The translations under genes and the position numbers were made by a program. Under the pieces are notes generated by a model. It was not told the DNA's origin, searched no databases, and saw only the letters and a list, made by a program, of their open reading frames with translations. 37,811 nt of DNA from Candidatus Gastranaerophilales bacterium (GTDB lineage: Bacteria > Cyanobacteriota > Vampirovibrionia > Gastranaerophilales > Gastranaerophilaceae). Shown one piece after another: positions 422 through 37,591 of this stretch (position 1 is its first letter; each line of letters starts with the position of its first letter). The DNA is taken from the NCBI GenBank assembly GCA_944326015.1, contig CALVCJ010000012.1, forward strand, positions 1 to 37,811. The letters run 5' to 3'.

Positions 422-805
422 CTATTTTTTTAATAATTCGTTACAATATTCATTAATATTATTACATTTATATTTTGGTATATATTGAACTCCGTATTTA
501 TTAGCAATTTGTTTAATATTACCGGAAGCGGAAATTATTATTATTTTTGTATTAGTGTATTCTTTATAAAATTTTATCTGCTTAATAAACCATTCACCAG
601 CATATAGCGGAAGATAATCTGACTCCATTTGCAAATCAGTAAGAATAATATCGTATGGTGTATCTATTGATATAGTTAATTTTTCAAAACCTTCACGTGC
701 TGAAAATGCTGTATCAATCTCAACTTTATTGTTAAAAATTTCTCTTACTGCATCTTTGTGATACAGAACCCATTTTTGTGAATCATCAACTATTAATATT
801 TTCAT
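422..805 (-). CDS. stand-alone response regulator receiver (CheY-like)
   Basis: This is a single receiver domain of 127 aa with no output domain. The acidic pair is D7-D8, the phospho-acceptor D57 (in ILTDLQM), the switch Ser S92 (IIIISAS), and the conserved Lys K111 (IPK), so all phosphotransfer residues are present. Such proteins pass a phosphoryl signal on by protein contact. The insert between D57 and the next strand (residues 60-75) is somewhat longer than in CheY. No kinase is adjacent; a histidine kinase lies at 4439-6139. The gene follows the terminator at 823-848 and appears to have its own promoter, whose -10 ends 6 nt before the ATG, with no Shine-Dalgarno. Confidence 0.85.
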   Translation of the reverse strand: MKILIVDDSQKWVLYHKDAVREIFNNKVEIDTAFSAREGFEKLTISIDTPYDIILTDLQMESDYLPLYAGEWFIKQIKFYKEYTNTKIIIISASGNIKQIANKYGVQYIPKYKCNNINEYCNELLKK

Positions 806-811
806 AGTTTT

Positions 812-840
812 ATTTTAACATAAAAGCCGCTTAATAATAA
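812..840 (-). promoter_or_regulatory. leaderless-type promoter of the receiver gene
   Basis: On the minus strand TAAAAT (817-812) is followed by 6 nt and then the ATG at 805. A weak -35 (TTATTA, 840-835) sits 17 nt upstream, inside the hairpin of the preceding terminator. No Shine-Dalgarno is present. The predicted transcript starts at or within a base of the ATG. Confidence 0.4.
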
Positions 841-848
841 GCGGCTTT
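820..848 (-). terminator. terminator of the Hsp20-like gene
   Basis: The perfect 10-bp stem AAAGCCGCTT (823-832) / AAGCGGCTTT (839-848) has a 6-nt loop and a short T run on the minus strand. It lies 28 bp past the stop of the Hsp20-like gene. Confidence 0.75.
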
Positions 849-875
849 ACAAAATTCATATTTATTTGAAAAGAA

Positions 876-1445
876 TTATTTGTCATAAGGAATTGTAATT
901 ATGTAATTATTTCCTTCTCGAATTTTCATAATATCATCCAGATCAACGTCATCTCCGAAGGCAAATGTCTGGCTGTATTTAATGATTTCGTGTTTATTAT
1001 GTCTGTTTCTTTCGCCTGCGGCATTGATTGTGAGCATATTGCCGTTAGTTTTTACTTCAACATTTTTTTCGTCATTGTCAAACGGTTTTAAATCAATAAT
1101 GATTTTGAATGTCTCAGGAGTTTGTTCAACGTGAATGTATTGTGCAGCATTACGGTCAATTCTTTGCTGCTGTTCAAACATTTTTTTCTCCATTCTTTCC
1201 TGCTGTTTGCGGGCATACCTTTCCATTTTGTTGAAGTTTTTTTCTCTTTGCATAACTGCTCTGTCTATTCTTCGCATTTGTGCTGCAGGATCAAACATTC
1301 TTTTGAAATGCCAGTCGGCAACTACATAAAATGCTGCAAATGCTCCAAGAAACACAAGTAAACCGGTCAAAAAATGTCTTAATGCAGGATGTTTGCATAA
1401 AAAGCAATCGTCAAAATCTTCGTGTCTATAATTGTTGTCTTCCAT
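876..1445 (-). CDS. membrane-anchored small heat-shock (Hsp20/alpha-crystallin) protein
   Basis: The 189-aa protein starts at ATG 1445, chosen because AAGGAGA lies 5 nt upstream; a longer frame reaches 1505 but has no ribosome binding site. A single membrane segment (about residues 25-42, LTGLLVFLGAFAAFYVVA) follows a cytosolic N-terminus containing C14 and C17. A charged Arg/Gln/Glu helix, probably coiled coil, spans about 58-100. The C-terminus (103-188) reads as an alpha-crystallin domain: the family pattern of FKIIIDLKPFD, then MLTINAAGER, then a closing YIITIP strand. Soluble Hsp20 chaperones hold unfolding proteins; this one would act at the membrane. A CS-like fold of other function is the alternative. 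Confidence 0.7.
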   Translation of the reverse strand: MEDNNYRHEDFDDCFLCKHPALRHFLTGLLVFLGAFAAFYVVADWHFKRMFDPAAQMRRIDRAVMQREKNFNKMERYARKQQERMEKKMFEQQQRIDRNAAQYIHVEQTPETFKIIIDLKPFDNDEKNVEVKTNGNMLTINAAGERNRHNKHEIIKYSQTFAFGDDVDLDDIMKIREGNNYIITIPYDK

Positions 1446-1590
1446 ATAAGTCTCCTTTCCTTTTACATTAATTATCAGTATAAAAAATTTTCTGTAAATG
1501 TCCATTACTCTATAGAGCTATTATTTTGTTATATGAACTTATTATAAAAGAAACTATTAATAAATAATATGGTATCAACGCTTTGCTTAT

Positions 1591-1680
1591 CCCACACTAT
1601 AGACAAAGTTCGCTTTCGCTGTGAGGGGGTGTGGGTTATTTTTCGTTATTGCAAGCGAATACGAGGCAATTCAGCTTATT
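1591..1680. repeat. decayed interspersed repeat with hairpin
   Basis: The gap between 1506 and 1750 has no gene. It holds a 7-bp inverted repeat, CCCACAC (1591-1597) / GTGTGGG (1629-1635), followed by ATTGCAAGCGAATACGAGGC (about 1650). The latter resembles the ATTGCGAGCGAAG-type sequences scattered through many bacterial genomes. There is no T tract in the right place for a terminator. The assignment is by resemblance only. Confidence 0.35.
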
Positions 1681-1750
1681 ATTTGAAGAAGAGAAGTTAA
1701 GACAGTAGGCAGGCTAATTTCATTTAAGGCTGTGTTGGCATGATTATTCG

Positions 1751-3133
1751 TTATGCTAAATATTTTTGTGCTGACTCTTTTGTGAATACTTCTATGCTGT
1801 CATGAGAATGTATAAAAATCATACAGTTTATAAGCGATTTCAATGTTTCAAAATCAGAAAATGAAAGTTTATACCGCAAATCTTCCATATTATTTGCAAG
1901 AAACTCCATTATGATAGTTTTGTTATCAAACACAAGATTGGCAAAGTAATCAAATGTTTCTTTTGATTTTACGCCTTCAAGATATATGATATCAGGGGAT
2001 TGGAATTCTATAAATCGAGAAGCTTTATCCATATTAAAGCCCACATTTTCATTTAACTCGCACTGATGAATATTTTTAAGATTGTATTTTGCAATACTTT
2101 CCAGTGTCATAATATTTTTGTTTTTATCTGCTGCTTCTATCAGCAATGAATATATAATATGCGTTTTCCCGCTCAGAGGAGAACCGCATACTATTATAAT
2201 CCCAGGATGATCAAGCGCTGATTTTATAACTTTTAAATTATTTGCAGATTTTATAATCTTATTTAATTGTTCAGGCGGTTTATAAATTTTAAGAAAAATT
2301 CTTTCTCCCATAATTGTTGGAAATGTTGAAATACTTGCAGTTATATTCATATTGTCAACTTTGAAATTTAATTTGCCAAGCTGTGGAACTTCGGAAACAG
2401 ATGCATCAAGCTCAGCAAGAGTTTTTAACTTCCCAGTAAATGAGGCTGAAAGAACATTTGGAATATTTCCTTTATTCTGAATTTCACTGTTTTTTTTGAA
2501 ATTTACAACAAGTCCATTGTCTTCGTGTTGAAACGCAACTTCATGTATGTTTTCAAGTATTGCCTGTTTGAGGATTGCTCTTATTATTTTTTGAATGTGT
2601 TTATCAGACAGATCTTCACTGTGAAGTTCATCACGCCAGTCAAAATCAGTATTTTCTTCAGTTGTTATTTCTTCGACATCTGCATCTTTTTTGTAATATT
2701 CGTCAATTTTTTTTCTGATGCTTGATTCAGAAGATATTACCGGCTCTATAGAGCATTCGGCTGTTTCGATTATTTTGTCAATTGCAAACAAATCTAAAGG
2801 GTCTGCCATAGCTACAGTCAACGTATCCTCAATTTTAAAAAGCGGGATAATTTTATATTTTTTTGCATCTGAAAAGTTAATATATTTAAGGCATTTTTCG
2901 TCAAGAGAGTAATCATCAAGGTTTACATAGGGAATGTGTAATTTTGCCTCGAGAAATTGGAGGATTGCATCTTCAGTTATAGCTCCGGAATTTATTAGTG
3001 CCTGACCTATATTAATATTTTGTGCAGCTGCAATTTCTTCTGCCTGTTCAATAGTTTCATAGGGCACAAGTCCAGCTCTTACCATATCATATTTTAATTT
3101 TTCCAGAGTTTTGTTTGTAACAGATGTTTCCAT
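1751..3133 (-). CDS. degenerate GspE/PilB-type ATPase with MshEN-like N-terminus
   Basis: The 460-aa protein has an MshEN-like N-terminal domain (about 10-75, second motif NIGQALINSGAITEDAILQF), a linker, and a type II secretion/type IV pilus ATPase domain (about 175-450). Walker A is intact (GSPLSGKT, 317-324). Other hallmarks are altered: the Asp box reads TLESIAK where the family has IEDPVE; the Walker B region reads PDIIYLEGVKSKET where PDIIMVGEIRDLET is usual; the His box histidine is absent; and the C-terminal tetra-Cys zinc site is missing. Some MshEN domains bind c-di-GMP. The gene starts 2 bp after the stop of the CheY-like gene, so the two are probably coupled. A regulatory, weakly active or inactive ATPase is more likely than a working pilus motor. 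Confidence 0.75.
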   Translation of the reverse strand: METSVTNKTLEKLKYDMVRAGLVPYETIEQAEEIAAAQNINIGQALINSGAITEDAILQFLEAKLHIPYVNLDDYSLDEKCLKYINFSDAKKYKIIPLFKIEDTLTVAMADPLDLFAIDKIIETAECSIEPVISSESSIRKKIDEYYKKDADVEEITTEENTDFDWRDELHSEDLSDKHIQKIIRAILKQAILENIHEVAFQHEDNGLVVNFKKNSEIQNKGNIPNVLSASFTGKLKTLAELDASVSEVPQLGKLNFKVDNMNITASISTFPTIMGERIFLKIYKPPEQLNKIIKSANNLKVIKSALDHPGIIIVCGSPLSGKTHIIYSLLIEAADKNKNIMTLESIAKYNLKNIHQCELNENVGFNMDKASRFIEFQSPDIIYLEGVKSKETFDYFANLVFDNKTIIMEFLANNMEDLRYKLSFSDFETLKSLINCMIFIHSHDSIEVFTKESAQKYLA

Positions 3134-3135
3134 AA

Positions 3136-3498
3136 TTATTTCAGATATTTTTCAACTTTTTTCACTACTTCATTCAAATCAAAGGGTTTTGTAATATATT
3201 CATCCGCACCTGTTTCTTCGCCGATAAGTTTATCTTCTTCCTGTGTGCGTGCTGTTACCATTAATATTGGAATATTTTTATATTTGCTGTCATATTTTAG
3301 TAAACGGCTGATTTTGTAGCCGTTAATTTTTGGCATCATGACGTCAAGAATAATTAAATCGGGTATAATATTTTTTGCAAGTCTAAGTCCGTCTTCCCCA
3401 TTATATGCACAATAGCAGGTAAAATCCGCGGCTTCAAGAACAAATTTTAAGCTTTCTACAATATCCTGTTCGTCGTCAACAATCAGAATTTTTTTCAT
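3136..3498 (-). CDS. CheY/PilH-like response regulator
   Basis: The 120-aa stand-alone receiver carries acidic residues D8 and D9, phospho-acceptor D52 (LIILDVMMP), T82 (VTAR) and K104 (ITKPF), a complete set. It starts at ATG 3498 behind a strong GGAGGAA site, with a TATAAT upstream. It ends 2 bp before the degenerate GspE/PilB-type ATPase, so the pair probably forms a transcription unit in which the receiver signals to that protein, as CheY-like proteins do in pilus and chemosensory systems. No kinase is encoded in the pair. Confidence 0.9.
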   Translation of the reverse strand: MKKILIVDDEQDIVESLKFVLEAADFTCYCAYNGEDGLRLAKNIIPDLIILDVMMPKINGYKISRLLKYDSKYKNIPILMVTARTQEEDKLIGEETGADEYITKPFDLNEVVKKVEKYLK

Positions 3499-3655
3499 AA
3501 TTCCTCCATAGTCTGCTGTAATTTAATTATAGCATATTAAAAATCTTCTTCTATATTGTTAAAATTTGTAATATATTCGTCATATATCAGCAATTTTTTG
3601 TATTTATTGTTTTTAAATATTTCAGTGTAGTAAGAATGAAAGGTGTTATTTTATC

Positions 3656-4465
3656 ATGGGATTATTAAATAAAGCAGTATCAGAAGTTAAAGAATGTTGT
3701 TTTAGATTTGGAGGTGTTCAGCGTATGGGGGCGCATACAAGGCCGACTGATACTAGAACTACAGAACAATTGCTGGCTAATATAGATTATTTTGCACAGC
3801 GTAACCCTGAGGTTGCCCAATTTAAACATGAATTGATGCAGATGAACCCTAAACATTTAGGGCTTGTATCTGATATCTGCGAATTGGCAAATAGAAGGGA
3901 AATGCTTCCTACAAATATTGATATCAAAGATGCAAGACAAGTTGGAAAAAATATTTTTGCAAAGTGGATTGAAAAACTCCCGAAAGCATCAAAGGAAAAT
4001 CCAGAAGCTTTGAATTTTACTCAGGAAGTTATAAATCAGACTGATAGCACTACATCAAAATTTTTTCTTATTTCAGCTGTAGATCTGCTTGAACATCCAG
4101 AAGTGTCAAGTCATTTGAGGGCAACAAAACCTTTTGTAAAAGATATTGCTGAAGCTGCGTTGGATGGTGGTTATACAATGGATTATTCCAAAGAAAGGGA
4201 CTTTGTGAATACTGTTGATGCTTTTATAAATCCTGCCTCTGATACAAGAAAAATAGAAATGCTTCCTGAAGTTATAAAGACAGCAGATGAAGCTTCAATA
4301 GATAAGGTCTACATTGACGCAATCCCCTTTATTCAAAGCAGAACTCCGATTGAACAAATTAGAGAAAATTTAAAAGTATTCTCTGAAGTGGCAAAAGGTT
4401 TATCAAAACAAACGGATGAGGTTAATATAACAGACTTTCTAACCCGCAACGTTAATCTGGACTAA
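3656..4465 (+). CDS. unknown helical protein, 269 aa
   Basis: I do not recognise a family. The protein is soluble-looking and mostly helical, with no signal peptide or membrane segment. Residues 35-110 (LLANIDYFAQRNPEVAQFKH and after) look like a helical-repeat region, and the short N-terminal stretch contains FGGVQRMG. The start at 3656 is supported by AAAGGTG about 10 nt upstream. The last 27 bp (4439-4465) overlap, tail to tail, the end of the histidine kinase gene on the other strand. It stands alone between two minus-strand units and is probably lineage-specific. Confidence 0.8.
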   Translation: MGLLNKAVSEVKECCFRFGGVQRMGAHTRPTDTRTTEQLLANIDYFAQRNPEVAQFKHELMQMNPKHLGLVSDICELANRREMLPTNIDIKDARQVGKNIFAKWIEKLPKASKENPEALNFTQEVINQTDSTTSKFFLISAVDLLEHPEVSSHLRATKPFVKDIAEAALDGGYTMDYSKERDFVNTVDAFINPASDTRKIEMLPEVIKTADEASIDKVYIDAIPFIQSRTPIEQIRENLKVFSEVAKGLSKQTDEVNITDFLTRNVNLD

Positions 4466-6139
4466 TTTTTTGACAACAGGAATTACAAAATAGAATTTAG
4501 AGCCTTTATTGAGTTCGCTGTCGCACCATATGGCGCCATAATGAGCTTCTAATAATTGTTTAGCAATCGGAAGCCCTAAACCAGTTCCGCCTGCTTTTCT
4601 GGATAGTGAATTTTCAATCTGCGCAAATTTGTCAAAAGCGTGAAGCAGGTCTTTTTCTGCAATCCCTATTCCTTCATCTTCTACGCAAACCTCTACATAA
4701 TCCCCATCAGCCAATTTTATTGAATCTTTAAAATACTCGTTAATTTTTATATCTTTTGAGCTAATCATACGCGAAGATATTTTTATTGTTTTGTTCTCAG
4801 GTGTAAACTTGATTGCATTAGAAACAAGATTTGTAAGAACCTGTTCAAGTCTTTGCGCATCTGCAGTAATATCGGGCAGGTTTTCAGATGCTTCTGTTCT
4901 TATGTTTAATCCTTTTGACTTTGCAACTTCTGACAGAGCTGATTTTACATAATCTATAACGGTATTTATATTTGTTGGTGCAAAATTAAAGTCCATTTTG
5001 CCGGCTTCAATTTTGGATAAATCCAGCAAATCATTAATTATACCGGAAAGTCTCTGCACATTTCTCATTGCCATAGAAAGAAATTTCTCGGATGATTCTG
5101 TTATTTTTCCGCAACGTCCGCTCATGAGAATATCAAGCGAGTTTTTTATAGAAGTCAGAGGAGTTCTTAGTTCATGTGAGACTATTGAAATAAACTCGGA
5201 TTTTAATCTTTCAAGTTTTTCAAGTTTTATATTTGCCTCAATAATTTCTTGATATAAAGTTGCGCTTTTTAAAGGTAAAGAAACTTGCTGCGCAATTGTC
5301 TGAAAGCAGGTTGCATCTTCGTGAGTAAAAGATGTTTCTTTAAAGATTTCAATACAACCAAAAATGTTATTTCCCAGGCTTATACGAGCAAGCATATTAT
5401 CGTATTGAAAAAGTGTGAATGTAAACCTGCTTGCAGGATACTTAATATGTTTTACTACTTTAAGTTTTTTTTCATCAATTTTTAAAGGTATATTTTCCTG
5501 TTCAAACAGGGAATTGTAATTTAAGACAGTGCGTAATTTGAGTGCGGTAATAAGTTCATCCGACAATTCATACAATGAATTTAGGATTAAAACGGGTTCA
5601 TCATCAGTGCATAAAGATAATGTACATGTTAGAGAAAAGCTTAGCGCTTTATCCATTCCCTCAATCATATATTGAATAAGTTTTGATTTATCCAGCGTTC
5701 CTGCAAATTGTGAGCTCGTAGAATATAGTGCATTTAACCTGTACAGACTCTCAGCAAGATCTTTGTTTGAATTTGATAGCATATCCAGAGAATTTTTCAT
5801 TCTGATATTAACATTGATTGTTGACATGATTACATCTTCACTCATATCAGAGGTAATGAAAGCATTTGCATATTTTATTACTTCTTTATTTACCTTATTC
5901 CCTGATATAAGGAATATTATGATAGTGTTTTCGCATTTTTCTTTAACTTTTCTAATTAAATTTTTACTACCTGAACTATTTTCATCTATGATAATTATAT
6001 CCGGAATTTCAATATTTATTGCATCAGATATAAATTTTTCATTTACGATTACAGAAAGCTCATATATATTTTTATCAAAAATATTAAGGAATCTATCGGT
6101 TGTCTGTTTATTACATGTTACCAACAAAATATTAATCAT
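4439..6139 (-). CDS. sensor histidine kinase with degenerate N-terminal receiver and GAF-like domain
   Basis: The 566-aa cytoplasmic kinase has no membrane segments. Residues 1-115 resemble a receiver: D52 is present, but the acidic pair is replaced (LLVTCNK) and the conserved Lys is not seen, so it is probably a pseudo-receiver. A GAF-like sensor region follows (about 145-295). HisKA carries the phospho-accepting H322 (SHELRTPLTS). The HATPase_c domain has an N box (NLVSNAIKF, 437-445), G1 box (DEGIGIAEKD, 488-497) and G2 box (GGTGLGL, 517-523), so the catalytic core looks intact. The partner regulator is not adjacent; the stand-alone receivers at 422 and 3136 are candidates. The ATG has no Shine-Dalgarno; a -10 ends 7 nt upstream. 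Confidence 0.9.
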   Translation of the reverse strand: MINILLVTCNKQTTDRFLNIFDKNIYELSVIVNEKFISDAINIEIPDIIIIDENSSGSKNLIRKVKEKCENTIIIFLISGNKVNKEVIKYANAFITSDMSEDVIMSTINVNIRMKNSLDMLSNSNKDLAESLYRLNALYSTSSQFAGTLDKSKLIQYMIEGMDKALSFSLTCTLSLCTDDEPVLILNSLYELSDELITALKLRTVLNYNSLFEQENIPLKIDEKKLKVVKHIKYPASRFTFTLFQYDNMLARISLGNNIFGCIEIFKETSFTHEDATCFQTIAQQVSLPLKSATLYQEIIEANIKLEKLERLKSEFISIVSHELRTPLTSIKNSLDILMSGRCGKITESSEKFLSMAMRNVQRLSGIINDLLDLSKIEAGKMDFNFAPTNINTVIDYVKSALSEVAKSKGLNIRTEASENLPDITADAQRLEQVLTNLVSNAIKFTPENKTIKISSRMISSKDIKINEYFKDSIKLADGDYVEVCVEDEGIGIAEKDLLHAFDKFAQIENSLSRKAGGTGLGLPIAKQLLEAHYGAIWCDSELNKGSKFYFVIPVVKKLVQINVAG

Positions 6140-6146
6140 AATAATT

Positions 6147-6174
6147 ATTTTAGCAGGATTAGTGTTTATCGCAA
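6147..6174 (-). promoter_or_regulatory. leaderless-type promoter of the histidine kinase
   Basis: On the minus strand TTGCGA (6174-6169), a 16-nt spacer and TAAAAT (6152-6147) lie 7 nt before the ATG at 6139. The promoter sits in the 40-bp gap after the rel stop codon, so the kinase can be transcribed without read-through from rel. Confidence 0.5.
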
Positions 6175-6179
6175 ATTAA

Positions 6180-8411: not shown

Positions 8412-8420
8412 GATATAATA

Positions 8421-15718: not shown

Positions 15719-16642
15719 TTTAAGGAAATTATCCAGTTCCTTTTTTACAAGCTTTGGTGCAACAGAAAGGCTTGTATTGAATTTTAAAGCATTGTTAAGT
15801 GATTTTACATATTTTCCTTTGTCTTTTTTTAGTTTTTGAATTTGTGCAAGAATGTAGTATAAATCACCGTTTGAACCACAGTTTTCTATTGCATTTTCCA
15901 TAACTTCGACAGCCTTATCAAGTTCATTTTCTTTTGTCAAAATTTTTGCATAAATTTTATAGGCGTCAATATCTTTAGGATTTAATTCAATTGTTTTTTC
16001 AAGATTTTGTGCGGCACCACCCAAGTTACCTTCGTCATAATCAATTGAGGCAAGATTAAAATATGCCCAGCTGTAATCAGGAGATAGTTCCAACACCTTT
16101 TCAAATTTTTTTCTTGCACCATCATTATCCCCCTCATCTTTCAGAATATTTCCGATATAAAAGTGTGCGTAAATATCTTCATCATTTATATCAATTGTCC
16201 TTTGAAAATAATATTTTGCCCCGTCAATTTTCCCTTCTTTAAAGTAGCATAAACCTATTGAAAAGTATGAATTTGAATCTTGATTATCCTTTTCTAATAC
16301 TTTTTCAAAGCAGTCAACAGCTTTTTCATACATTTTTTTATCAATATATACGAGTCCAAGGTTGTAATATGCATCAATTTCATCAGGTGCAAGCTCTATT
16401 GATTTTTTATAAGCTTCTTCAGCTTTATTTAGATCTTTTAACTTTTCGTATGTAATACCTAGGTTGTAAAAAATTCTGCTGTCTTCTTCAAAAATTTTTG
16501 ATAAGTACAGAAAATGCTGTCTTGCTTCTTCCGGATATCCTGTATCAAGAAGAAGTACAGCAAGTTCTCGTCGTGCCTGAAAATTAGTTTTATCATCTTT
16601 TAAGATTTGTTGTAATTCTTCTATTTTTTCAATTTTGGACAT
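15716..16642 (-). CDS. tetratricopeptide repeat protein, 308 aa
   Basis: Almost the whole protein is made of about eight 34-residue TPR units with the standard pattern (for example YNLGLVYIDKKMYEKAVDCF and YFNLASIDYDEGNLGGAAQN). TPR solenoids bind other proteins; the partner is unknown. There is no signal peptide, so it is cytosolic. It diverges from the exported-protein gene at 16724. There is no Shine-Dalgarno; a TATAAT ends 6 nt before the ATG, so the mRNA is predicted to be leaderless. Confidence 0.92.
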   Translation of the reverse strand: MSKIEKIEELQQILKDDKTNFQARRELAVLLLDTGYPEEARQHFLYLSKIFEEDSRIFYNLGITYEKLKDLNKAEEAYKKSIELAPDEIDAYYNLGLVYIDKKMYEKAVDCFEKVLEKDNQDSNSYFSIGLCYFKEGKIDGAKYYFQRTIDINDEDIYAHFYIGNILKDEGDNDGARKKFEKVLELSPDYSWAYFNLASIDYDEGNLGGAAQNLEKTIELNPKDIDAYKIYAKILTKENELDKAVEVMENAIENCGSNGDLYYILAQIQKLKKDKGKYVKSLNNALKFNTSLSVAPKLVKKELDNFLK

Positions 16643-16648
16643 AACTGT

Positions 16649-16676
16649 ATTATAAAACTTTTCTGAGATATTGCAA
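16649..16676 (-). promoter_or_regulatory. leaderless-type promoter of the TPR gene
   Basis: On the minus strand TTGCAA (16676-16671), 16 nt, and TATAAT (16654-16649) lie 6 nt before ATG 16642. No Shine-Dalgarno is present. Confidence 0.6.
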
Positions 16677-23190: not shown

Positions 23191-23219
23191 TTGTATACGA
23201 TACTTATGCGTGATATAAT
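23191..23219 (+). promoter_or_regulatory. leaderless-type promoter of the zinc-ribbon/TPR gene
   Basis: TTGTAT (23191-23196), 17 nt, and a perfect TATAAT (23214-23219) lie 6 nt before ATG 23226. No Shine-Dalgarno is present. This promoter would drive the large gene and glgA. Confidence 0.7.
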
Positions 23220-23225: not shown

Positions 23226-26200
23226 ATGGAATGTCCGAAATGTGGTTTAGAGATTGACGATAAAGCATTGGTTTGCCCTAATTGCAAAAAGGTGCTCAAG
23301 TTGACCTGTCCTATTTGTAAAACTATTAATGCAACTAATGCCTGCAAAAAATGCGGATATGTTATTATTACAAAATGTCATAACTGCGGAAAGATAAATC
23401 AAACAATTACTAAGAAATGTAGAAAATGCGGGTTTGATACAGAAAAAAGCGTTATAATGAATGAATCCAATACGGATGATTTTGTGTTGCTTACAATTGA
23501 TTTCCCGAATATGAACGATATGAAAGATTATCTAGGTTCGGCTAAACTTCTTAATAAATTTAAAATTAATATTGATAAAGTTATTAATGATTATGCAAAA
23601 TCAATAGGTCTCAGAAGGCAGTTAATAGGCAAAACTTATGTAATAAGATGTGATAAGGATTATACATTCAACAGTTCTGCTTCAACAGCTGTTAAAGCTG
23701 CAATTGATCTTTTAAACCTTATTACTGCAATGAATTGTAAACTTACCCGTAAAAAAAATGCTACTGTCCGCTGCAATATGTTTTTGCTTAAAAGAAATAT
23801 TGAAGATGACCCGAATAATATTGATTCCGGCTATAACATAAACCTTTTAAATCAAAACGCAAAGAATAAAGAGGACAAAATTCTAAATACTTTTCAGGTT
23901 TTAACTGATGATCATGTTTGTGATTCAATTAGTGGTGATTATAAAGTATCTCCGTTAAATTCAGTTATGGTTAATGATGAAATGGTTATGTTTTACGAGG
24001 TTGATTTGAGGGAATTCGTAACTGTTGAGTATCCGCAGGATGATGAAGAACAGGAAATTGAAATACCTAACTTCGTGCAGAATATGCTTATAGAACAGGA
24101 TAAACTTGACGGTGATGCTTTAAATAATCTTCAATCTCCTACTGATTCGGATGCAATTTATGATATTGAAACAATAAATTTTGATGAAATTAACTGTGAA
24201 TTTATACGTACAGAAAATATTGATGTTTTGTATCATATAATTAATAAATTTCAGGCCATTCCAAAAGGCATTATGGCTATTAGGACTGCTGAAATGTACA
24301 AGCCTTATACGCTTAAAGTTTTGAATGCGGCAGCAGAAACAGGACAATTTAATAATATTATAACAGTAACATGTTATGATGAAATGAAATATTCTCCATA
24401 TTCTTTTTTCAGAGATCTTGTTTCTGCAATTTTTGAATATACTGTTTCACAAAAATTATTTTCACAGAATGATTTTACAATGTTTGCTTCTGTTGATCCT
24501 GATGGTTTGATAAGGGATTTGATTACACTTCATAAACGGAATGATGAAAATACTGAAGATACAAGATATATTTATTTTGATATTTTTCTGACGTTGCTGC
24601 AGATAATACCCAAAACACTTATATTTATAGAGGACTTTGATAGGATTGACTCAAGTTCTTACGATGTTTTGAAATATTTGTTTGAAGCTTTTGAACAGCT
24701 TGATATCAGTTTTTTAATTTCTTATGATAAATCTTTCTCACTTCACAGAGATTGTCATTTTCTGTTAAGCAAGCCTTATTATACTGAAATTACGCTTAAA
24801 CCTACATCATTTGAGAAACTTATTGAAGAAAATAAAATATACTATAGAAATATTCTTAACAATTTTTATTTTCAAAGAGTTGCTAAATATGCTTGCGGCA
24901 GCAGTTTGTTTATTGATATTGCAATTCAATATTTGATTGAATCCGGTGTATACGCAGCTGATGATGACAGTATTGAAATGATTGATCCAAAAACTATTAT
25001 TATTCCGTCAAGTTTGGATAAGCTTGTTGCTCGAAGATTGAATCTTTTGCAGGATGATGAGGCTTCAATGAAGTTTTTAACATCAGTGGTGCTTCTTGGC
25101 ACAAGAATTGATATGGAAACAGTTAAAAGTCTTGAATTTGAAAATTATACAGATTTAATTGAAAAACTTTCAAATATGGGATTTTTGTATGAATATAATA
25201 ACTGTATCTATTTTCCGAATTACAACCTATTAAGAGATAATTTGCTTACTACAATTAGTAAGATTTATTTGAAAGATGTTGCAGAAGAACTATTTTCCAA
25301 GGTCTTTATAGATAATATGCCAAGTCCTGTAAAGGCCTATTTGTATGGTTTGCTGGATGATAGAGAAAATGAACGTTTGCAATGGGAGCAACTTGCTGAT
25401 ATAAATTTATCACTTGGTGATTTCAGTTCATATCTGAACTGTGCAGATAAAATTTTACAAATTCTTGATATGAATGATGATCCAGAACAGGTTGAAAATA
25501 TCGAAAATTATAAGATAAATTTGTATGAAAGTATTTCAAATAACCTGTATGATTATGTTCCAGAAAAGACTTCGGAAATAGCGGCAGCAACACTAATAAA
25601 TCTTGAAAAAAATGCTGACACCGATAAAATAATTCTTTTATGTAATAAAATGATTAATGGTTCACTGATAAGCGGAAACTATAATCATGCACTGGAGCTG
25701 ACTCACAAAGTTTTATCTCTTCTTCCGCCAGCTTCTCTTTCGCCGAGTGACCCGAATTTTAATAATTATTTCTTTTTGATGTCAGTAATTCATATTCAGA
25801 TTTTATTTAATATAGGAGCTCTTGCTGACTGTCTTGATATCGGCTATAAGGTTTTCAATATTTTAAATAACACTACTATCTTGTCATTGAAACCTGATTA
25901 TATGTCAGAAGATGATTTTAATTCATTAATCACTGACTCTGCTGGGTATATTGCGCTCGCTAATGTTCTTTTGCTTGTTGGAAATGTTGATGAGTTTTTG
26001 CGAATACTAAGAGGAGATTTGAATTTTATACCAAAGTCTTATGATTTGTTTATTGTATTGCAGGAACTTATACATGGAAGAAAACTTCCTGATATGAATT
26101 TCCAAATTTCAGATAATGACCGTTTCGGACCTGTTATCTTTAATATTATAAACGCATTTGTTTCGTTTAACGGTGACTATAAATTATTTGCAGAAAATAT

Positions 26201-28166: not shown

Positions 28167-28195
28167 TTGTTATTTTTGTTGATAAAATGCATAAT
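28167..28195 (+). promoter_or_regulatory. leaderless-type promoter of the EamA transporter
   Basis: TTGTTA (28167-28172), 17 nt, and CATAAT (28190-28195) lie 6 nt before ATG 28202. This favours the second ATG over the one at 28187, which lies inside the spacer. Confidence 0.6.
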
Positions 28196-28201: not shown

Positions 28202-29104
28202 ATGAAAAACAAAGAGTATTTAAAACTTCATGTTTCAGTTGTCCTTGCCGGATTGACTGGAATACTTGGAAAGTTAATATCTTTAAATGCAATTTTTCTG
28301 GTATGGTATCGATTTGTGTTTGCAATTATCATTTTTTATATTATTTTGTTTTTTACGAATAAATTTCCGCGTGAAAATATAAAAGATATTTTTAAAATAG
28401 CTGTTTTAGGTATGCTTCTTGGTTTGCATTTTTTATTTTTCTTTGCGAGTATCAAGTATTCAAATGTTGCAGTAGGTGTTGTTTGTTATTCTCTTGAAGG
28501 ATTTTTTACAGCAATACTTGAGCCTGTATTGATGAAAAAATCTTTTTCTACTGGTAACATAATGTGTAGCCTAATTGCAGTTGCAGGTATAAGTTTAATT
28601 TTTCATATAGATACTCATTTTCGTGCAGGAATCGTTCTTGGGATAATTTCTGCTTTGTTGATTGCTATTTACACAATATATAATAAGGTTATGGTTATGA
28701 GCGAACAAAAAACTTCCAAAAGTATGCTGTTTTATGAGCTTTTAGGGGGCAGTATTTTTGTTTCAATTATTTTGATTGTTTATATGATTATTTCACGTGC
28801 AGGATTTATTCTACCTTCATTAATGAATTTTACTTATATTTTTATACTTTCTTTCTTCTGTACGATAGGGCTTTATATTTTACAGCTTCAGGTTTTGCGT
28901 ACTCTTTCTGCTTTTACTGTAAGTTTGTACGGAAATTTTGAACCACTATACGGAATTTTACTTGCTATTTTGTTTCTTGGTGAAGGTAAGGAATTAGGTA
29001 TCTCTTTTTATTTGGGAATGTGTTTGATATTTATATCTGTTTTTCTTCAGTCATTTATAAAATCAAACTTATCAAAAAAAAGAGCAAGAACTGCGCAAAT
29101 TTAG
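28202..29104 (+). CDS. EamA/DMT-superfamily transporter
   Basis: The 300-aa protein has ten hydrophobic helices in two five-helix halves, the EamA (drug/metabolite transporter) layout. Features are AIFLVWYRFVFAIIIFYI in helix 2, a conserved SLEGFFTAILEPV segment in the first half, and FEPLYGILLAILFLGE in the second; both are typical of EamA repeats. It is an inner-membrane exporter or importer of small metabolites, substrate unknown. Start 28202 is chosen from promoter spacing; 28187 would add five residues. No Shine-Dalgarno is present. It follows glgA by 36 bp. Confidence 0.88.
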   Translation: MKNKEYLKLHVSVVLAGLTGILGKLISLNAIFLVWYRFVFAIIIFYIILFFTNKFPRENIKDIFKIAVLGMLLGLHFLFFFASIKYSNVAVGVVCYSLEGFFTAILEPVLMKKSFSTGNIMCSLIAVAGISLIFHIDTHFRAGIVLGIISALLIAIYTIYNKVMVMSEQKTSKSMLFYELLGGSIFVSIILIVYMIISRAGFILPSLMNFTYIFILSFFCTIGLYILQLQVLRTLSAFTVSLYGNFEPLYGILLAILFLGEGKELGISFYLGMCLIFISVFLQSFIKSNLSKKRARTAQI

Positions 29105-29812: not shown

Positions 29813-29834
29813 TTGTACAATATAATTGATATTT

Positions 29835-32079: not shown

Positions 32080-32226
32080 GACGTTTTCCCTTTCGCTTTG
32101 TTTCCTTATGTTTTCTTGTACGGCACAACAAAAAGAAATCTTTAATTATTATAACAAAAAAGTTAACAATTCTTAATAAAAATCCACCAAATATAGTAAT
32201 ATTGTACAAAAAATCATTTAATTATA

Positions 32227-33465
32227 TTAGACAACTTTTTTTAATTCTTTAATTACATATTCCATTGCGCCTTGTTGAGAATCAAAAACAGTTTTACAGT
32301 CATTGCAGCTCTGGATATAAAACTCTTTATCAGATAGGAGTTTGTGCATGTAATCCGTTAATTCCTGCGGTGTTTTTACAACTTTACCAGCCTTAGTGCG
32401 TGATAAAATCCAGTAAATATCCCTGAAGTTATGAATTGAAGGCCCTGAAATGGCAGGCTTATTATAAACAATTGCTTCGAGAGGGTTATGACCTCCGGTT
32501 TTGTTAAAGCTTCCGCCGATAAAAGCAAAATCGCATATCTGATACATTTTGCTTAATTCTCCGAGTGTATCAAGTATAATTATATCATTATCGGCAAATG
32601 TATTGTTTTTTGACCTCAAACCATAAGGCAGAGAAGTTTTTTCAACTAATTCTATAATGTTATTTACTCTTGTCAGGTGTCGTGGTGCCAGGAGTAATTT
32701 GATATCAGCAAATTCTAGCTTTAATTTTTTGAAAGCTGATAATATTATTTCATCTTCACCTTTATGAGTACTTCCGGCGATTATTATTCTGTTTTCGCCT
32801 TGTCCGATTTTAATATCCGCATCAATTCTTTTTATATCAAATTTAAGGTTTTTCATAACATGCGTTTTTTCTGCAGGTGACCCTATTTTAATGAATTTCA
32901 CTTTATCTTCTTCGCTCTGGGTCAAAACTTCTGTATAATTTTTGAAAAGTTCTTTGAAAAATCCTTTTAATAAACTGTAGCTTTTGAAGGTTGAATCTGA
33001 TATCCTTCCGTTTATAACAAAGAGCGGTATGTTTCTTTTTTTACAATAAGCCGAAAAAGTGGGCCATAATTCCGTTTCAGCAATTAAAACCACACTTGGT
33101 TTAATTTTTTTTAGGAAAACTTCTACACAAATAGTTATATCAAACGGAAAATATGTAATAAAGTCAGCAATATTATCATATTTTTTGTGTGCAATTTCCT
33201 GTCCGGTTTTTGTACCTGTTGTTACTACTATTTTGTAGGCCGGAAAAGTTTCTTTGGTCTTTCTTATAAGATTTTCCAGTGCAATTACTTCTCCGACAGA
33301 AACACCATGAAACATAATTACTTTATCGCCTAACTCAGGAGCATGAAAATTCCCGAGTTTTTCTTTCCAACCCGGTAAAAATTTCCCCCTGCCGGCTCTT
33401 ACTAGTGCATAAAACGGCAGTGAAATTAAAAATAAAATTGTTGATAATATTCGATAAATAAACAT
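32227..33465 (-). CDS. waaA: 3-deoxy-D-manno-octulosonic acid (Kdo) transferase
   Basis: The 412-aa GT30 enzyme adds Kdo from CMP-Kdo to lipid A precursor at the inner membrane, which implies a lipopolysaccharide outer membrane. It has an N-terminal membrane anchor (5-22), HGVSVGE (53-59) containing the expected catalytic Glu E59, ETELWP, a GSTHKGEDE donor-side motif, and GGSFNKTGGHNPLEA near the C-terminus, all typical of WaaA/KdtA. No other lipid A gene is adjacent. The start lacks a Shine-Dalgarno; a perfect TATAAT lies 11 nt upstream. It diverges from folK. Confidence 0.95.
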   Translation of the reverse strand: MFIYRILSTILFLISLPFYALVRAGRGKFLPGWKEKLGNFHAPELGDKVIMFHGVSVGEVIALENLIRKTKETFPAYKIVVTTGTKTGQEIAHKKYDNIADFITYFPFDITICVEVFLKKIKPSVVLIAETELWPTFSAYCKKRNIPLFVINGRISDSTFKSYSLLKGFFKELFKNYTEVLTQSEEDKVKFIKIGSPAEKTHVMKNLKFDIKRIDADIKIGQGENRIIIAGSTHKGEDEIILSAFKKLKLEFADIKLLLAPRHLTRVNNIIELVEKTSLPYGLRSKNNTFADNDIIILDTLGELSKMYQICDFAFIGGSFNKTGGHNPLEAIVYNKPAISGPSIHNFRDIYWILSRTKAGKVVKTPQELTDYMHKLLSDKEFYIQSCNDCKTVFDSQQGAMEYVIKELKKVV

Positions 33466-33476
33466 ACTTTAGCTTG

Positions 33477-33505
33477 ATTATATAATAAAAAAATATGCTA
33501 TACAA
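33477..33505 (-). promoter_or_regulatory. promoter of waaA, very short leader
   Basis: On the minus strand TTGTAT (33505-33500), 17 nt, and TATAAT (33482-33477) lie 11 nt before ATG 33465, predicting a leader of about 4 nt. Confidence 0.6.
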
Positions 33506-33518
33506 TTAAACTTTTATA

Positions 33519-33547
33519 TTGACAATGCATGGCAAAAAATCTAAAAT
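33519..33547 (+). promoter_or_regulatory. leaderless-type promoter of folK
   Basis: A consensus TTGACA (33519-33524), 17 nt, and TAAAAT (33542-33547) lie 7 nt before ATG 33555. It shows that the upstream TTG and ATG codons in this frame are promoter sequence and not starts. Confidence 0.75.
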
Positions 33548-33554
33548 GCTGTAT

Positions 33555-34061
33555 ATGGCAATAGTATATTTAAGTTTAGGTTCAAATTACGGTGACCGTA
33601 TTGGCTATGTTCAGCAGGCAACAAGTTTGTTAAACGCTGCTGAAAACATTAACCTGATCAGAACGTCTGCTTTTTATGAAACAGAACCGTGGGGTATGGA
33701 TTCTGAAAACTGGTTTGTAAATGCTGTAGTTGAAATTAAAACTAGTCTGCCGCCTCAAAAACTGTTAGAAGAATGTCAGAGAATAGAAAATCAGCTGGGG
33801 CGCAAGAGAACTAATGAAACTGCTTACTCAGACAGAACAATTGATATTGATATTCTGTTTTATAACAAAGATATTATTAATGATGAAAATCTTGTAATCC
33901 CCCATAAGTTTTTACATTTGAGAGCGTTTACCCTTGTTCCGCTTCTTGAGTTAATCCCGAATTTTGAACACCCTGTTTTTCACAAAACAATCTCAGAATT
34001 GCACAGTGATTTGGAAAATCCGGAAATGGTATTTTTGTATGGCACAAGAGTCGAAATCTAA
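33555..34061 (+). CDS. folK: 2-amino-4-hydroxy-6-hydroxymethyldihydropteridine pyrophosphokinase
   Basis: The 168-aa enzyme transfers pyrophosphate from ATP to the pterin in folate synthesis. It opens AIVYLSLGSNYGDR, as in the family, and carries YETEPWG (41-47) and RTIDIDILFY (94-103) with magnesium-binding D97 and D99. The start 33555 is chosen from promoter spacing and from the family N-terminus; the frame stays open to 33519, but that codon is the -35 box. Its last 23 bp overlap the flavoprotein gene. No other folate gene is in the window. Confidence 0.94.
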   Translation: MAIVYLSLGSNYGDRIGYVQQATSLLNAAENINLIRTSAFYETEPWGMDSENWFVNAVVEIKTSLPPQKLLEECQRIENQLGRKRTNETAYSDRTIDIDILFYNKDIINDENLVIPHKFLHLRAFTLVPLLELIPNFEHPVFHKTISELHSDLENPEMVFLYGTRVEI

Positions 34062-35157
34062 AATCGCTGTTATAGGCGGAGGACCTGCCGGTTGTATTTG
34101 TGCATATTTTCTGCAGAATAATTTTGATGTAACCATTTTTGATAAAAATGAGCTTTTAAAGACTTTATTGCCCACCGGCGGCGGGAGATGTAATATTTGC
34201 TATGCAGAATTTGATTTTAAAGAACTTGCTTCAAATTATCCACGCGGTGAAAAATTCCTATATTCTGTATTTTTAAAATTCGGGACTGCTGAAACTCTTG
34301 AATTTTTTGAGAATATAGGTATAAAAACATATGTTCAGGATGATATGAGAGTTTTCCCTGTTTCAAACAGTTCTGCAAAGGTAAGAGAGAAATTTTTTAA
34401 AGCTTTGAATAATGTTAAATTTATCAGGGAAGAGGTGTTACGTATCAATGATGGTTTCAGCGTTGTAACGAATATGGGAGCTTATAAAGCAGATTATATT
34501 GTAATATCAACAGGTGGTCATTCTTCGTATGATTTTATAAAAAAGCTCGGTCATACTATTATTGAGCCCAGACCTGCACTTACCGGTTTAAAGACGCTTG
34601 AGGACTTTTCTGCATTAAGCGGAGTTTCTCTCAACGGTATTTTATTTACGCATAAAGGTATTTCCGGACCTGAAATTTATAGAATATCGTCGTTGAAAGC
34701 AAGGGATAAATTCCCGTATAAGTTAACTTTTGATTTTATTGGTAGTATTGATTTGCAGTCGGAATTGAATGCAAATCCCCATAAAAGTATCCGTAATCTT
34801 CTTGGAAATCATGTGCCGAAATCTTTAGCCGACTTTAGCCTTAATTTTCTGAATATTAATCCGGATAAACAATGTCATTTAATTGATGGCAAAACTCGTG
34901 ACAGAATTCTATATAAACTCCAAAAATTTGAGGTTACTGTTACCGGTACAGTGCCTGATGGGGAAGTTGTTACAGCTGGCGGTGTTGATTTAAAAGAGAT
35001 TAATCCTAAAACTATGGAATCAAAACTTGTTCCGAATATATATTTTTGTGGTGAAGTTATGGATATTGACGGCTTTTGCGGAGGATTTAATCTGCAAAAT
35101 TGCTGGTCAACGGGTTTTGTGGCGTCTCAAGGCTTAAATCTTACCCTTGGCAGCTAA
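34039..35157 (+). CDS. BaiN/YhiN (HI0933)-family FAD-dependent oxidoreductase
   Basis: The 372-aa flavoprotein has an N-terminal FAD-binding Rossmann motif (IAVIGGGPAGC, 9-19), the family motif TGGGRCN (46-52), and the C-terminal block MESKLVPNIYFCGEVMDIDG then GGFNLQNCWSTG, all diagnostic of HI0933-like proteins. The substrate is unknown; named relatives reduce bile-acid intermediates, but that cannot be assumed here. It is slightly shorter than usual (about 400). The start at 34039 lies inside folK (23-bp overlap), so translation is probably coupled. Its last 24 bp overlap the convergent gene on the minus strand. Confidence 0.88.
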   Translation: MAQESKSKIAVIGGGPAGCICAYFLQNNFDVTIFDKNELLKTLLPTGGGRCNICYAEFDFKELASNYPRGEKFLYSVFLKFGTAETLEFFENIGIKTYVQDDMRVFPVSNSSAKVREKFFKALNNVKFIREEVLRINDGFSVVTNMGAYKADYIVISTGGHSSYDFIKKLGHTIIEPRPALTGLKTLEDFSALSGVSLNGILFTHKGISGPEIYRISSLKARDKFPYKLTFDFIGSIDLQSELNANPHKSIRNLLGNHVPKSLADFSLNFLNINPDKQCHLIDGKTRDRILYKLQKFEVTVTGTVPDGEVVTAGGVDLKEINPKTMESKLVPNIYFCGEVMDIDGFCGGFNLQNCWSTGFVASQGLNLTLGS

Positions 35158-36471
35158 TTCTTTTTTTAAATCTTCTTTAACCTGAAAAGCGTTGTTGTCT
35201 TTATTAAGTTTTCTGAACGCAATCATAATCGCAGGTGCAAGTATTCCCAGAGCTCCGATACATGCGCCCATGTTTTTCAGGATTGATCTTCTTTTTAATT
35301 TTTTGACATTATCTAAGAACGCTTCAAGCGTCTTTTCTTTTACATTTGCTTGTTTGAACTGTTCAAATTTATTTTGTAGTTTATTCAGTTTTTCTGCAAC
35401 TCCTCTAACTTCATCAAAGTCTATGAATCTTCTGTAATCAACATTATCTGCCTGTGTTGCCTTTTTCAAAATTGGCAGTACATCTGATTTTTTAGCCATT
35501 TTTACAACAAAATCATCCGGGTTGTTATGAATGAAATCAAGTAATTCTTCATGAGAGTTGAGTGCTAGAACTTTTCCGGTACTTTCTTTAAGTCTGCCGT
35601 TTTTGAAAGCTTCTTTAAGTTCTTCGCTTTCTATAACTCTTGCATCCAGATCAATTGATGCCGGTTTCTTTTTGTTTTTTTCTGCTGCGTTTTCAAGGAA
35701 TTTCTGGATAGGCTTGCTTGCAAAATACATAAATAACCATACTGAGCCTTCTTTAATGGTATATCCAAGTAATTCCTGTTTGTTTCTGGACTCTGCAAGT
35801 CTTTCAGCAGTAATAGCTCCGTCAAGTATCATAAGGTTTTTGACCGGGTTATACATAAAATCCTGTATGCTTCCTGTAAATGTCGTTTGTTTTTTCTGTA
35901 ATTTAAAATTATTAAATGCAGAGGATGTCGGAGCGGTATAAGCAAATGTGTCTTTCTTTTGATGTTCTTTTGCCATTTCTGCAAGAATTTCTTTTTCAGC
36001 ATCCTTTCTTGTCTTATAATGTCTGTATTTTGTTAATCCGGCGTAAGACACAATTGTAAGAGCTGTAGAAATAACAAATTTTGTCATGGCAAGATGTTTT
36101 GTATATTTAGGATTTTTGCTTGCGGTTTTTATGCTCTCTTTAATTGATGCATCGGCATATTCAATAGTTTTTTCTAAAATTTTGCTTCTCTTGTTTGAAA
36201 GGTTTCTGACATCGAATTTCGGGTCTATTTTTAAAGCTTTGTACATTGTGTAATCCATAAGCTTTTTATAAATTGGGATTCCGAAAAGCCAGATGGCTTG
36301 AGTTCCAAACTCATCTAAAAATCTGTCTTTTCCCTCTAACTTATCCCCTGTAATATATGAACCTGCAGTTAATCCTAGGCTATTTGCAACATCTTTAATG
36401 GCCATGGGTACAAGCGAATTATTATTTCCCAATATTGAATATATACTGCTAGCGCTAATTGCGGGTATCAT
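35134..36471 (-). CDS. unknown membrane-associated protein, 445 aa
   Basis: No family is recognised. The start at 36471 is preferred over 36489, because AAAGGAAA lies just before it and covers the codons after the earlier ATG. The protein opens MIPAISASSIYSILGNN. It has hydrophobic stretches near 140-155 (FVISTALTIVSYAGL), about 235-250 (SVWLFMYFAS) and near 415-430 (GACIGALGILAPAIMIAF), joined by long Lys/Glu-rich helices. The segment TTFTGSIQDF carries the F-x-G motif also seen at 8819-9352. It is convergent with the flavoprotein gene, with 24 bp overlap. A short ORF and a hairpin lie in its leader. Confidence 0.75.
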   Translation of the reverse strand: MIPAISASSIYSILGNNNSLVPMAIKDVANSLGLTAGSYITGDKLEGKDRFLDEFGTQAIWLFGIPIYKKLMDYTMYKALKIDPKFDVRNLSNKRSKILEKTIEYADASIKESIKTASKNPKYTKHLAMTKFVISTALTIVSYAGLTKYRHYKTRKDAEKEILAEMAKEHQKKDTFAYTAPTSSAFNNFKLQKKQTTFTGSIQDFMYNPVKNLMILDGAITAERLAESRNKQELLGYTIKEGSVWLFMYFASKPIQKFLENAAEKNKKKPASIDLDARVIESEELKEAFKNGRLKESTGKVLALNSHEELLDFIHNNPDDFVVKMAKKSDVLPILKKATQADNVDYRRFIDFDEVRGVAEKLNKLQNKFEQFKQANVKEKTLEAFLDNVKKLKRRSILKNMGACIGALGILAPAIMIAFRKLNKDNNAFQVKEDLKKELAAKGKI

Positions 36472-36483
36472 TTTTTCCTTTCC

Positions 36484-36501
36484 TGACACTCTTTGGTGTC
36501 A
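36484..36501. promoter_or_regulatory. hairpin next to the ribosome site of the 445-aa gene
   Basis: A perfect 6-bp inverted repeat, TGACAC (36484-36489) / GTGTCA (36496-36501), lies immediately upstream of the AGGAAAGGA ribosome site on the minus strand and could affect its access. Confidence 0.35.
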
Positions 36502-36516
36502 CTCAAAATCTAAAAA

Positions 36517-36600
36517 CTACAAACCCCAAATTAAGTTCATTAATTTGACGATAGGGGCATTCGCCTTGATTGTTGAGTTTCGTCGGATATTATTTTTCAT
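36517..36600 (-). CDS. short leader ORF, 27 aa
   Basis: This minus-strand ORF starts at ATG 36600 with GGAAGG 7 nt upstream and ends at TAG 36517. It encodes a basic then hydrophobic peptide (MKNNIRRNSTIKANAPIVKL at the start). It ends 45 bp before the 445-aa gene, ahead of a small hairpin. It could be a leader peptide or a small protein; there is no proof it is translated. Confidence 0.35.
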   Translation of the reverse strand: MKNNIRRNSTIKANAPIVKLMNLIWGL

Positions 36601-36681
36601 AATTTAACCTTCCACTTTTTTGATAAATACACTGAATATTTTTTCTTGCCTTATATTGGCATAATTTTAACGATTATTAAC

Positions 36682-36710
36682 AAAAAAAAGACCTTTCGGG
36701 GGGAAAGGTC
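36682..36710 (-). terminator. terminator of the candidate small RNA
   Basis: The stem GACCTTTC (36690-36697) / GAAAGGTC (36703-36710) has a five-base C loop on the minus strand, followed by eight T (36689-36682). Confidence 0.9.
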
Positions 36711-36808
36711 AAGTAATAAAAAAATTATTTTATCGACAAACAGTAAGCGTCTTATTTTTATAACAAGCCTTTCATAAGTCTTACAATTCGTCGTAATTGA
36801 TTGTTCAT
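36682..36808 (-). ncRNA. candidate small RNA or tiny leaderless mRNA, about 127 nt
   Basis: A strong minus-strand promoter predicts a start at about 36808, and an intrinsic terminator ends at 36682, leaving a transcript of about 127 nt. Its first 51 nt form a 16-codon ORF (36758-36808, MNNQLRRIVRLMKGLL, basic and amphipathic). The remaining 70 nt are non-coding and end in a hairpin with a C-rich loop (CCCCC). It could be a regulatory RNA, a small-peptide mRNA, or both. It belongs to no class I recognise. Confidence 0.5.
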
Positions 36809-36814
36809 AACTAT

Positions 36815-36843
36815 ATTATAATCTGCTGAAAAATATTTGTAAA
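36815..36843 (-). promoter_or_regulatory. promoter of the candidate small RNA
   Basis: On the minus strand TTTACA (36843-36838), 17 nt, and a perfect TATAAT (36820-36815) lie 6 nt before the ATG at 36808. Confidence 0.7.
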
Positions 36844-36903
36844 GTATGATTTATTTGGAGTTATATATAAATTTCTACCAAATATTATTAAGATATAAAG
36901 ATA

Positions 36904-37050
36904 CTGTCACCCTGAACTTGTTTCAGGATCTAATTGCTATGTGATGCTACACTTCGTAAAGACAGGCTCACTCAAAATTTTTAAGATCCTGAAATAAATT
37001 CAGGATGACAGAAATTTAGGTTCGCTTTGTCAAACAAGTTCAGCATGACG
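36904..37050. repeat. interspersed inverted-repeat element
   Basis: Two 28-bp arms (36904-36931 and 36984-37011) are inverted copies matching at 25 of 28 positions, with the core CCTGAACTTGTTTCAGGATC and its variant. A third, partial, copy lies in inverted orientation at about 37028-37050. Between the arms are 52 bp without a gene. Sequences of the TCATCCTGAACTTGTTTCAGG type are scattered in many unrelated bacterial genomes. No transposase is present. Confidence 0.75.
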
Positions 37051-37097
37051 TTTTTACCCATAATTGGTGTAATCTGCAATATAAATCTCTTTTTTCA

Positions 37098-37126
37098 TTT
37101 ACTTTTTCCCTGAAATCTTATATAAT
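37098..37126 (+). promoter_or_regulatory. leaderless-type promoter of the TonB-type gene
   Basis: TTTACT (37098-37103), 17 nt, and a perfect TATAAT (37121-37126) lie 6 nt before ATG 37133. No Shine-Dalgarno is present. Confidence 0.6.
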
Positions 37127-37132
37127 TGATTT

Positions 37133-37591
37133 ATGAAAAAGATTATTTTATTAATTTTGTTTTTGTTTTTCTGTCAGGAATTGGCTTTTGCCGTAAAATC
37201 TGCTGATAAAAATTCTTTAATATATGACGGCGTGAATTTTAAATCTTATATGAAAAACTTGAAAAAAGAGATATATTCAAATTGGCAGCCGTATAAGTCA
37301 GGTGAGAGTAATCATGTGATTGTATTTTTTTAAGTTGGAAAAGACGGAAACTTGATAACTCTCTCTATACGAAAATCTTCTGGTGTGAAAAAAGTAGATG
37401 ACGCTGCACTAAAGGCTGTGGAAGCTGCTGCGCCTTTTAAATCTTTGCCAGAAGGCTTTAAAGGTAAAAGTATAGATGTTGAGTTTACTTTTGATTATAA
37501 AGTATTAGGCAAATCCAATAAGACTCTTAATAACGATAAGAAAAATATTTTTAAATCAAATTCTTATGATGATAAACTTTATTATAAGTAA
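37133..37591 (+). pseudogene. TonB C-terminal-like exported protein interrupted by an in-frame TAA
   Basis: One frame of 152 sense codons plus stops is cut by TAA at 37331-37333. The first part has a signal peptide (1-20, IILLILFLFFCQELAFA), then YMKNLKKEIYSNWQPYK and HVIVFF. After the stop the same frame continues VGKDGNLITLSIRKSSGVKK, DDAALKAVEAAAPF and VEFTFDY. This is the order of a TonB/TolA C-terminal domain, and an intact relative would have Lys at the stop (FF-K-VGKDG), so a single A-to-T change explains it. The promoter looks intact. It is a recent pseudogene, a sequencing error, or (less likely) read-through. Confidence 0.75.

Follow-up and report, generated by a model that had tools for sequence, protein, structure and literature searches.

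The stretch of DNA analysed here (the window; 37,811 nt, GC content 33%) is contig C12 of assembly G000, of 1.99 Mb. It comes from Candidatus Gastranaerophilales, an order of Candidatus Melainabacteria beside Cyanobacteriota. The proS protein encoded in the window has an 82% match to assemblies of this order (L003). An earlier note on its sequence had listed eight starts at which a candidate -10 box ends 6 or 7 nt before the ATG. This raises the question of whether the mRNAs of these genes begin at the start codon, and how widespread such an arrangement is. A box 6 nt before the start, together with the lack of a ribosome-binding motif, means that the mRNA likely begins at the start codon itself. 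On the sequence evidence given below, it is very probable that roughly a tenth of the genes in the sampled genome carry a TATAAT-like box 6 nt before the ATG, have no Shine-Dalgarno (SD) motif and give rise to predicted leaderless mRNAs.

Candidate promoters at start codons of the window

Boxes were accepted if they read TA...T and departed from TATAAT at no more than one position. They were confirmed at six protein starts, 805, 6139, 16642, 23226, 33555 and 37133. The two other starts of the earlier list did not hold in the same form, as 28202 is preceded by CATAAT only, and there is no ATG at 36808. The -35 elements that had been described at 16-17 nt from the box are present at 6139, 16642, 23226, 28202, 33555 and 37133.

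On the reverse strand, the receiver-domain gene (CDS 422-805) has the box TAAAAT at 812..817, 6 nt from the ATG at 805 (motif-model score 10.9). The histidine kinase gene has TAAAAT at 6147..6152, 7 nt from the ATG at 6139, and the -35 box TTGCGA at 6169-6174 with a 16-nt spacer; the evidence for this box is weaker, because the genome sample has no excess at the 7-nt spacing. Upstream of the TPR protein gene, TATAAT at 16649..16654 lies 6 nt from the ATG at 16642 (motif-model score 10.8), with TTGCAA at 16671-16676 and a spacer of 16 nt. The latter site shows turnover: TAAAAT is found at 6 nt in relative L020, and the box is absent in L003, L008 and L009.

On the forward strand, the zinc-ribbon/TPR protein gene is preceded by TATAAT at 23214..23219, 6 nt from the ATG at 23226, with TG at 23211-23212 and the -35 box TTGTAT at 23191-23196 (17-nt spacer). 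The double zinc-ribbon domain of this protein starts from residue 3. The EamA transporter gene has the weaker box CATAAT at 28190..28195, whose first base is off consensus, 6 nt from the ATG at 28202, and TTGTTA at 28167-28172 (17-nt spacer); a second possible in-frame ATG is at 28187. In folK, TAAAAT at 33542..33547 lies 7 nt from the ATG at 33555, and TTGACA at 33519-33524 is separated from it by 17 nt. Finally, TATAAT at 37121..37126 and TTTACT at 37098-37103 (17-nt spacer) precede a short or interrupted ORF of a TonB-type gene, with the ATG at 37133 again 6 nt from the box.

Among 30 starts of the window, listed by hand with the protein starts of the earlier note included, the box is at 6 nt in 4 cases against 0.57 expected (P = 2.4e-3), and at 6 or 7 nt in 6 cases against 1.14 expected (P = 8.0e-4).

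Several other features of the window were observed. Within 37133-37591, the ORF of the TonB-type gene ends after 66 aa next to a T run and is followed by an ORF in another frame, 37352-37591; the former may be interrupted, or there may be an assembly error. In the region 36900-37050, pieces similar to CCCTGAACTTGTTTCAGGATC recur in both orientations and give the impression of a small, palindromic intergenic repeat element. Position 36808 was rejected as a leaderless start, since the site has no ATG; the next one is at 36846, and 23 nt separate it from the closest TATAAT (36817-36822). A scan of the window with Rfam at gathering thresholds produced two tRNAs only and no small-RNA match at 36808. 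Hairpins resembling terminators, with a T-run that passes directly into the promoter box of the following gene, occur at 818-850 of the window and at L094:5247, L096:684 and L100:3923.

A spacing peak and its promoter letters

The genome sample consisted of the window and 20 stretches of 20 kb, 437,811 of 1,987,102 bases (22%). Simple ORF calls with the first ATG used yielded 356 genes of at least 110 aa. The box is at exactly 6 nt in 34 of them, the mean being 6.7 per other position (P = 7e-14). No clear excess was seen at other spacings in this sample (5 genes at 7 nt, 3 at 8 nt, 4 at 9 nt and 10 at 11 nt). Thus the genome-wide excess of -10 boxes that the earlier note had proposed to look for at 6-7 nt is strong at 6 nt and missing at 7 nt, and the 7-nt cases of the window rest on orthologues. 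The note had also named rel (9 nt) and waaA (11 nt) as near cases; as neither spacing is clearly above the mean, these genes are better left out.

The peak is also present in other genomes of the family (23/412 genes at 6 nt, mean 5.5, P = 2e-8). It is weak among 96 further genes, a small set taken from around the folK and zinc-ribbon orthologue loci, with 3 genes at 6 nt and 5 at 7 nt. Genes from other phyla show no peak (3/830 at 6 nt, mean 4.6). When codons in frame are counted, 36 of 640 ATGs have the box at 6 nt, compared to 4-11 at other spacings from 3 to 11 nt. In-frame non-ATG codons have no 6-nt peak (GTG 1, TTG 4, CTG 1, ATT 8, ATA 11, ATC 2), and leaderless GTG or TTG starts were therefore rejected. 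A motif model gives scores of at least 6 to 37/356 genes and to 0.6% of shifted positions, a count that is partly circular, since the 34 box-at-6 genes themselves served to build the model.

One could suspect that, in an AT-rich genome, many TATAAT-like words lie near ATGs and the fitting ones were picked by chance. The GC content of 33% favours this, and such words indeed occur at every distance. However, the excess is confined to a single position, no such excess is seen in the AT-rich photosynthetic relative G160 (GC 0.37; 4/276 genes, mean 2.6, not significant), and the box is conserved at orthologues. We therefore regard chance as scarcely conceivable.

The SD motif (AGGA, GGAG or GAGG near the start) was found in none of the 34 box-at-6 genes and in 45% of all 356 genes, so the two start modes of the earlier note do coexist. 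In the family sample of 768 genes, it occurs in 1 of the 57 box-at-6 genes and in 356 of the 711 others. With the A of ATG taken as +1, the box occupies positions -12 to -7, which is where sigma-70 promoters normally have it when transcription starts at that A. Position -1 is T in 33 of the 34 genes and C in the remaining one; in the family sample the numbers are 53/57 and 341/711. From the 6-nt spacing and T at -1 together, transcription is predicted to start on the A of ATG.

Further upstream, TG at -15/-14 (19/57 vs 46/711) and TTG at the 17-nt spacing (10/57 vs 22/711) are enriched, but these extended -10 and -35 features are partial, as both TG and TTG at 16-18 nt are lacking in 25/57 genes. 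A T-tract at -21..-17 is present in 31/57 box-at-6 genes, 44/711 others and 73/437 cases before -10-like words located further upstream. A T-tract before the extended -10 may be a lineage-specific promoter element replacing the -35 box. At the upstream -10-like hexamers, the transcription start signature amounts to no more than a weak preference for a purine 7 nt downstream of the box.

These letters suggest the following mechanism. The main sigma-70 polymerase likely binds the T-tract, TG and the -10 box and opens the DNA. Transcription would start on the A of ATG, after the T at -1, and the mRNA would have no leader, or one of at most 1-2 nt. The ribosome would then directly engage the 5'-terminal AUG and start translation there.

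Another possibility is that the genes are expressed mainly from leadered mRNAs, due to upstream promoters or readthrough, and the promoter adjacent to the start is a minor, second one. Seven of the 43 genes with the box at 5-8 nt do lie at most 40 nt downstream of a gene on the same strand. However, first genes account for 28 of the 43, and an SD motif on which a leadered mRNA could rely is absent from all 43. Moreover, a terminator-like hairpin is situated just before the box in 4/57 box-at-6 genes and in 3/711 others. Predominantly leadered expression is thus distinctly improbable, and leaderless mRNAs are the preferred reading, although the same genes may also have other, more distant promoters.

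It could also be that these genes have short leaders, the real start being a downstream ATG led by an SD motif and the ATG at 6 nt a spurious 5' extension. The gene calls took the first ATG of each ORF and could have introduced such extensions. However, an SD-led in-frame ATG within 25 codons exists in only 2 of the 34 box-at-6 genes. Among the 38 genes with motif-model scores of at least 4, 24 match NCBIfam families, 17 of them with a model that starts within residues 1-7; in the zinc-ribbon orthologues, the cysteines directly follow the ATG. Nor would a spurious ATG account for the T at -1 or for a spacing fixed at 6 nt. The coding score of the first 20 codons is 0.24 in the 34 genes, 0.29 in SD genes and -0.92 off frame, and in 20 of the 34 an in-frame stop codon is at most 12 nt upstream. 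Wrongly extended starts are thus very unlikely to account for the peak, and the ATGs at 6 nt are best treated as the predicted starts of leaderless mRNAs. Named members of this class include dnaA, recF, hisS, gmk, mfd, ispG, rsmH, folE2, nadD, rarA and dtd. The purD and prephenate dehydrogenase genes are also among them, with matches below the curated cut-off.

Conservation at orthologues and distribution in the phylum

Orthologues of the folK and zinc-ribbon/TPR genes were searched in 45 genomes of the family. Each gene had matches in 44 genomes, and 30 loci were cut for each. The box is 6 or 7 nt before the ATG in 24/30 folK orthologues (3/30 at 7 nt) and in 26/30 zinc-ribbon/TPR orthologues (5/30 at 7 nt), with protein identities down to 57% and 27%, respectively. 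It is missing at these spacings in 6/30 and 4/30 orthologues. In the folK and zinc-ribbon loci with the 6-nt spacing, the box has 1.4-1.5 bits per position and the next 5 nt have 0.19-0.27. The observation of the earlier note is partly confirmed. With the 6-nt excess and the spacing kept at orthologues, its leaderless interpretation, with 5' ends that we infer, is supported.

For dnaA, 30 chosen genomes were searched, 27 matched and 26 loci were read. The box is 6 or 7 nt before a candidate ATG in 14/14 loci of the family and in 0/12 loci outside it. The starts of L298 and L301 are ambiguous, and with automatic choice of the ATG the family count becomes 13/14. The information content is 1.5 bits per position in the box and 0.56 in the 5 nt behind it. 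The predicted trait is family-wide and includes dnaA.

The distribution across the phylum was assessed by whole-genome counts of the exact patterns TATAATN6ATG and TATAATN5ATG. In Gastranaerophilaceae the counts are 9895 vs 5013, with the 6-nt pattern ahead in 85 of 85 genomes; the excess is near zero in some genera (60 vs 59 in G231, 92 vs 90 in G255). The other 94 genomes of the class have 2574 vs 1664. Here the excess is seen in families f4 (ratio 2.5), f3 (2.0), f6 (1.6), f8 (1.5) and f2 (1.5), and no significant excess in f5 (1.10), f7 (1.06) and f9 (1.27).

The class is not known to have photosynthetic members; the PsaA search inside it covered families f1 and f6. Among families outside the class, those that lack a PsaA/PsaB match (18 genomes) have 556 vs 416, with an excess in f10, f12, f16, f19 and f20 and none in f23 (251 vs 297) and f26 (0 vs 2). 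No excess was observed in families with PsaA/PsaB, where 88 genomes, 87 of them matching themselves, have 2620 vs 2890.

At the gene level, the peak was reproduced in f4 and f6 (10/122 at 6 nt, mean 1.2) and in f12 (7/334, mean 1.3), where C is at -1 in 5/7 genes. Counts are not significant in photosynthetic G160 (see above) and in G278, G182 and G207 (4/139, mean 1.5, P = 0.06). The gene samples of f2, f3 and f8 (0/159 at 6 nt) and of f10, f16 and f20 (0/124 at 6 nt, 3 at 7 nt) are too small or too GC-rich.

Some genomes stand apart. In the photosynthetic family f17, PsaA/PsaB are unmatched in G238 and at best weakly matched in G274 (E = 5.8e-26); these two are perhaps reduced endosymbionts. 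In f23, the TATAAT-rich genomes G168 and G176 lack both a PsaA/PsaB match and a 6-nt excess. The rpsA model matches 193 of 194 genomes of the phylum, Gastranaerophilaceae included, with no match over the cut-off; G168 is the sole genome without one. Loss of ribosomal protein S1 was considered as a cause and rejected, since Gastranaerophilaceae also have rpsA model matches.

As a tentative scenario, possible rather than probable, leaderless expression would be the older state of the cyanobacterial phylum. It would have been kept in non-photosynthetic lineages, namely Gastranaerophilaceae, several other families of the class and families outside it that have no PsaA, and lost in oxygenic Cyanobacteria. 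In Gastranaerophilaceae it would have been extended to the replication initiator dnaA, so that one promoter-start unit sets both its transcription and its translation. As photosynthetic and several non-photosynthetic families differ in this mode, its gain and loss can be tested on one tree.

Implications and comparison with known systems

The rule TATAAT, 5 nt, T, ATG would correct start-codon calls and promoter maps in a lineage of common, little-cultured gut bacteria. AUG-first mRNAs are predicted for genes of replication (dnaA, recF, mfd), translation (hisS, rsmH), and nucleotide and folate metabolism (gmk, purD, folE2, folK). In E. coli, leaderless mRNAs are described as translated at low efficiency (PMC3898074), which makes the lineage a test case for running core genes on such mRNAs.

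Leaderless genes are known in other phyla. No report of them in Melainabacteria, Vampirovibrio or Sericytochromatia was found in the open-licence literature searched. Thus the kind is known, and within this literature it appears to be new for this lineage. StartLink (PMC9581028), in the part used here, cites leaderless transcription as predicted for 21.6% of bacterial species, and a weak unknown signal in Cyanobacteria.

In the survey of Zheng et al. 2011 (PMC3160421), TANNNT about 12 nt before starts is the mark of leaderless genes, described for 207 of the 953 bacterial genomes. Among the groups named in the part cited here there are no Cyanobacteria, which are mentioned there for atypical signals. 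As that survey describes them, the TA-led genes of Actinobacteria and Deinococcus-Thermus likewise have a TATAAT-like box whose first T precedes the start codon by about 12 nt. They have no SD motif and exist alongside SD-led genes, and both properties were tested and found here. The TG before the box is also shared, as it occurs in low-GC genomes such as Lactococcus. By the same description, the TA-led genes differ from ours in belonging to other phyla.

Mycobacterium tuberculosis, according to the sections of Cortes et al. 2013 (PMC3898074) used here, has similar TANNNT promoters, and among its genes that have a primary transcription start, this start overlaps the start codon in 26%. Its leaderless set, like ours, often includes aminoacyl-tRNA synthetases. 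However, C is the commonest letter at -1 in M. tuberculosis, whereas here T is nearly fixed. TGN precedes 7% of its boxes and no -35 motif is reported, whereas here TG and the T-tract are frequent. Genes of active growth are depleted in its leaderless set, whereas here dnaA, gmk and purD belong to the class.

Deinococcus-Thermus, as presented in the portions cited here of a 2025 study (PMC12340547), also has the -10 motif a few base pairs before the ORF. Reporters demonstrate leaderless expression there, and a -35 box raises transcription. In that phylum, about 30% of ORFs have an adjacent -10 box, compared to about 10% here, as estimated from sequence.
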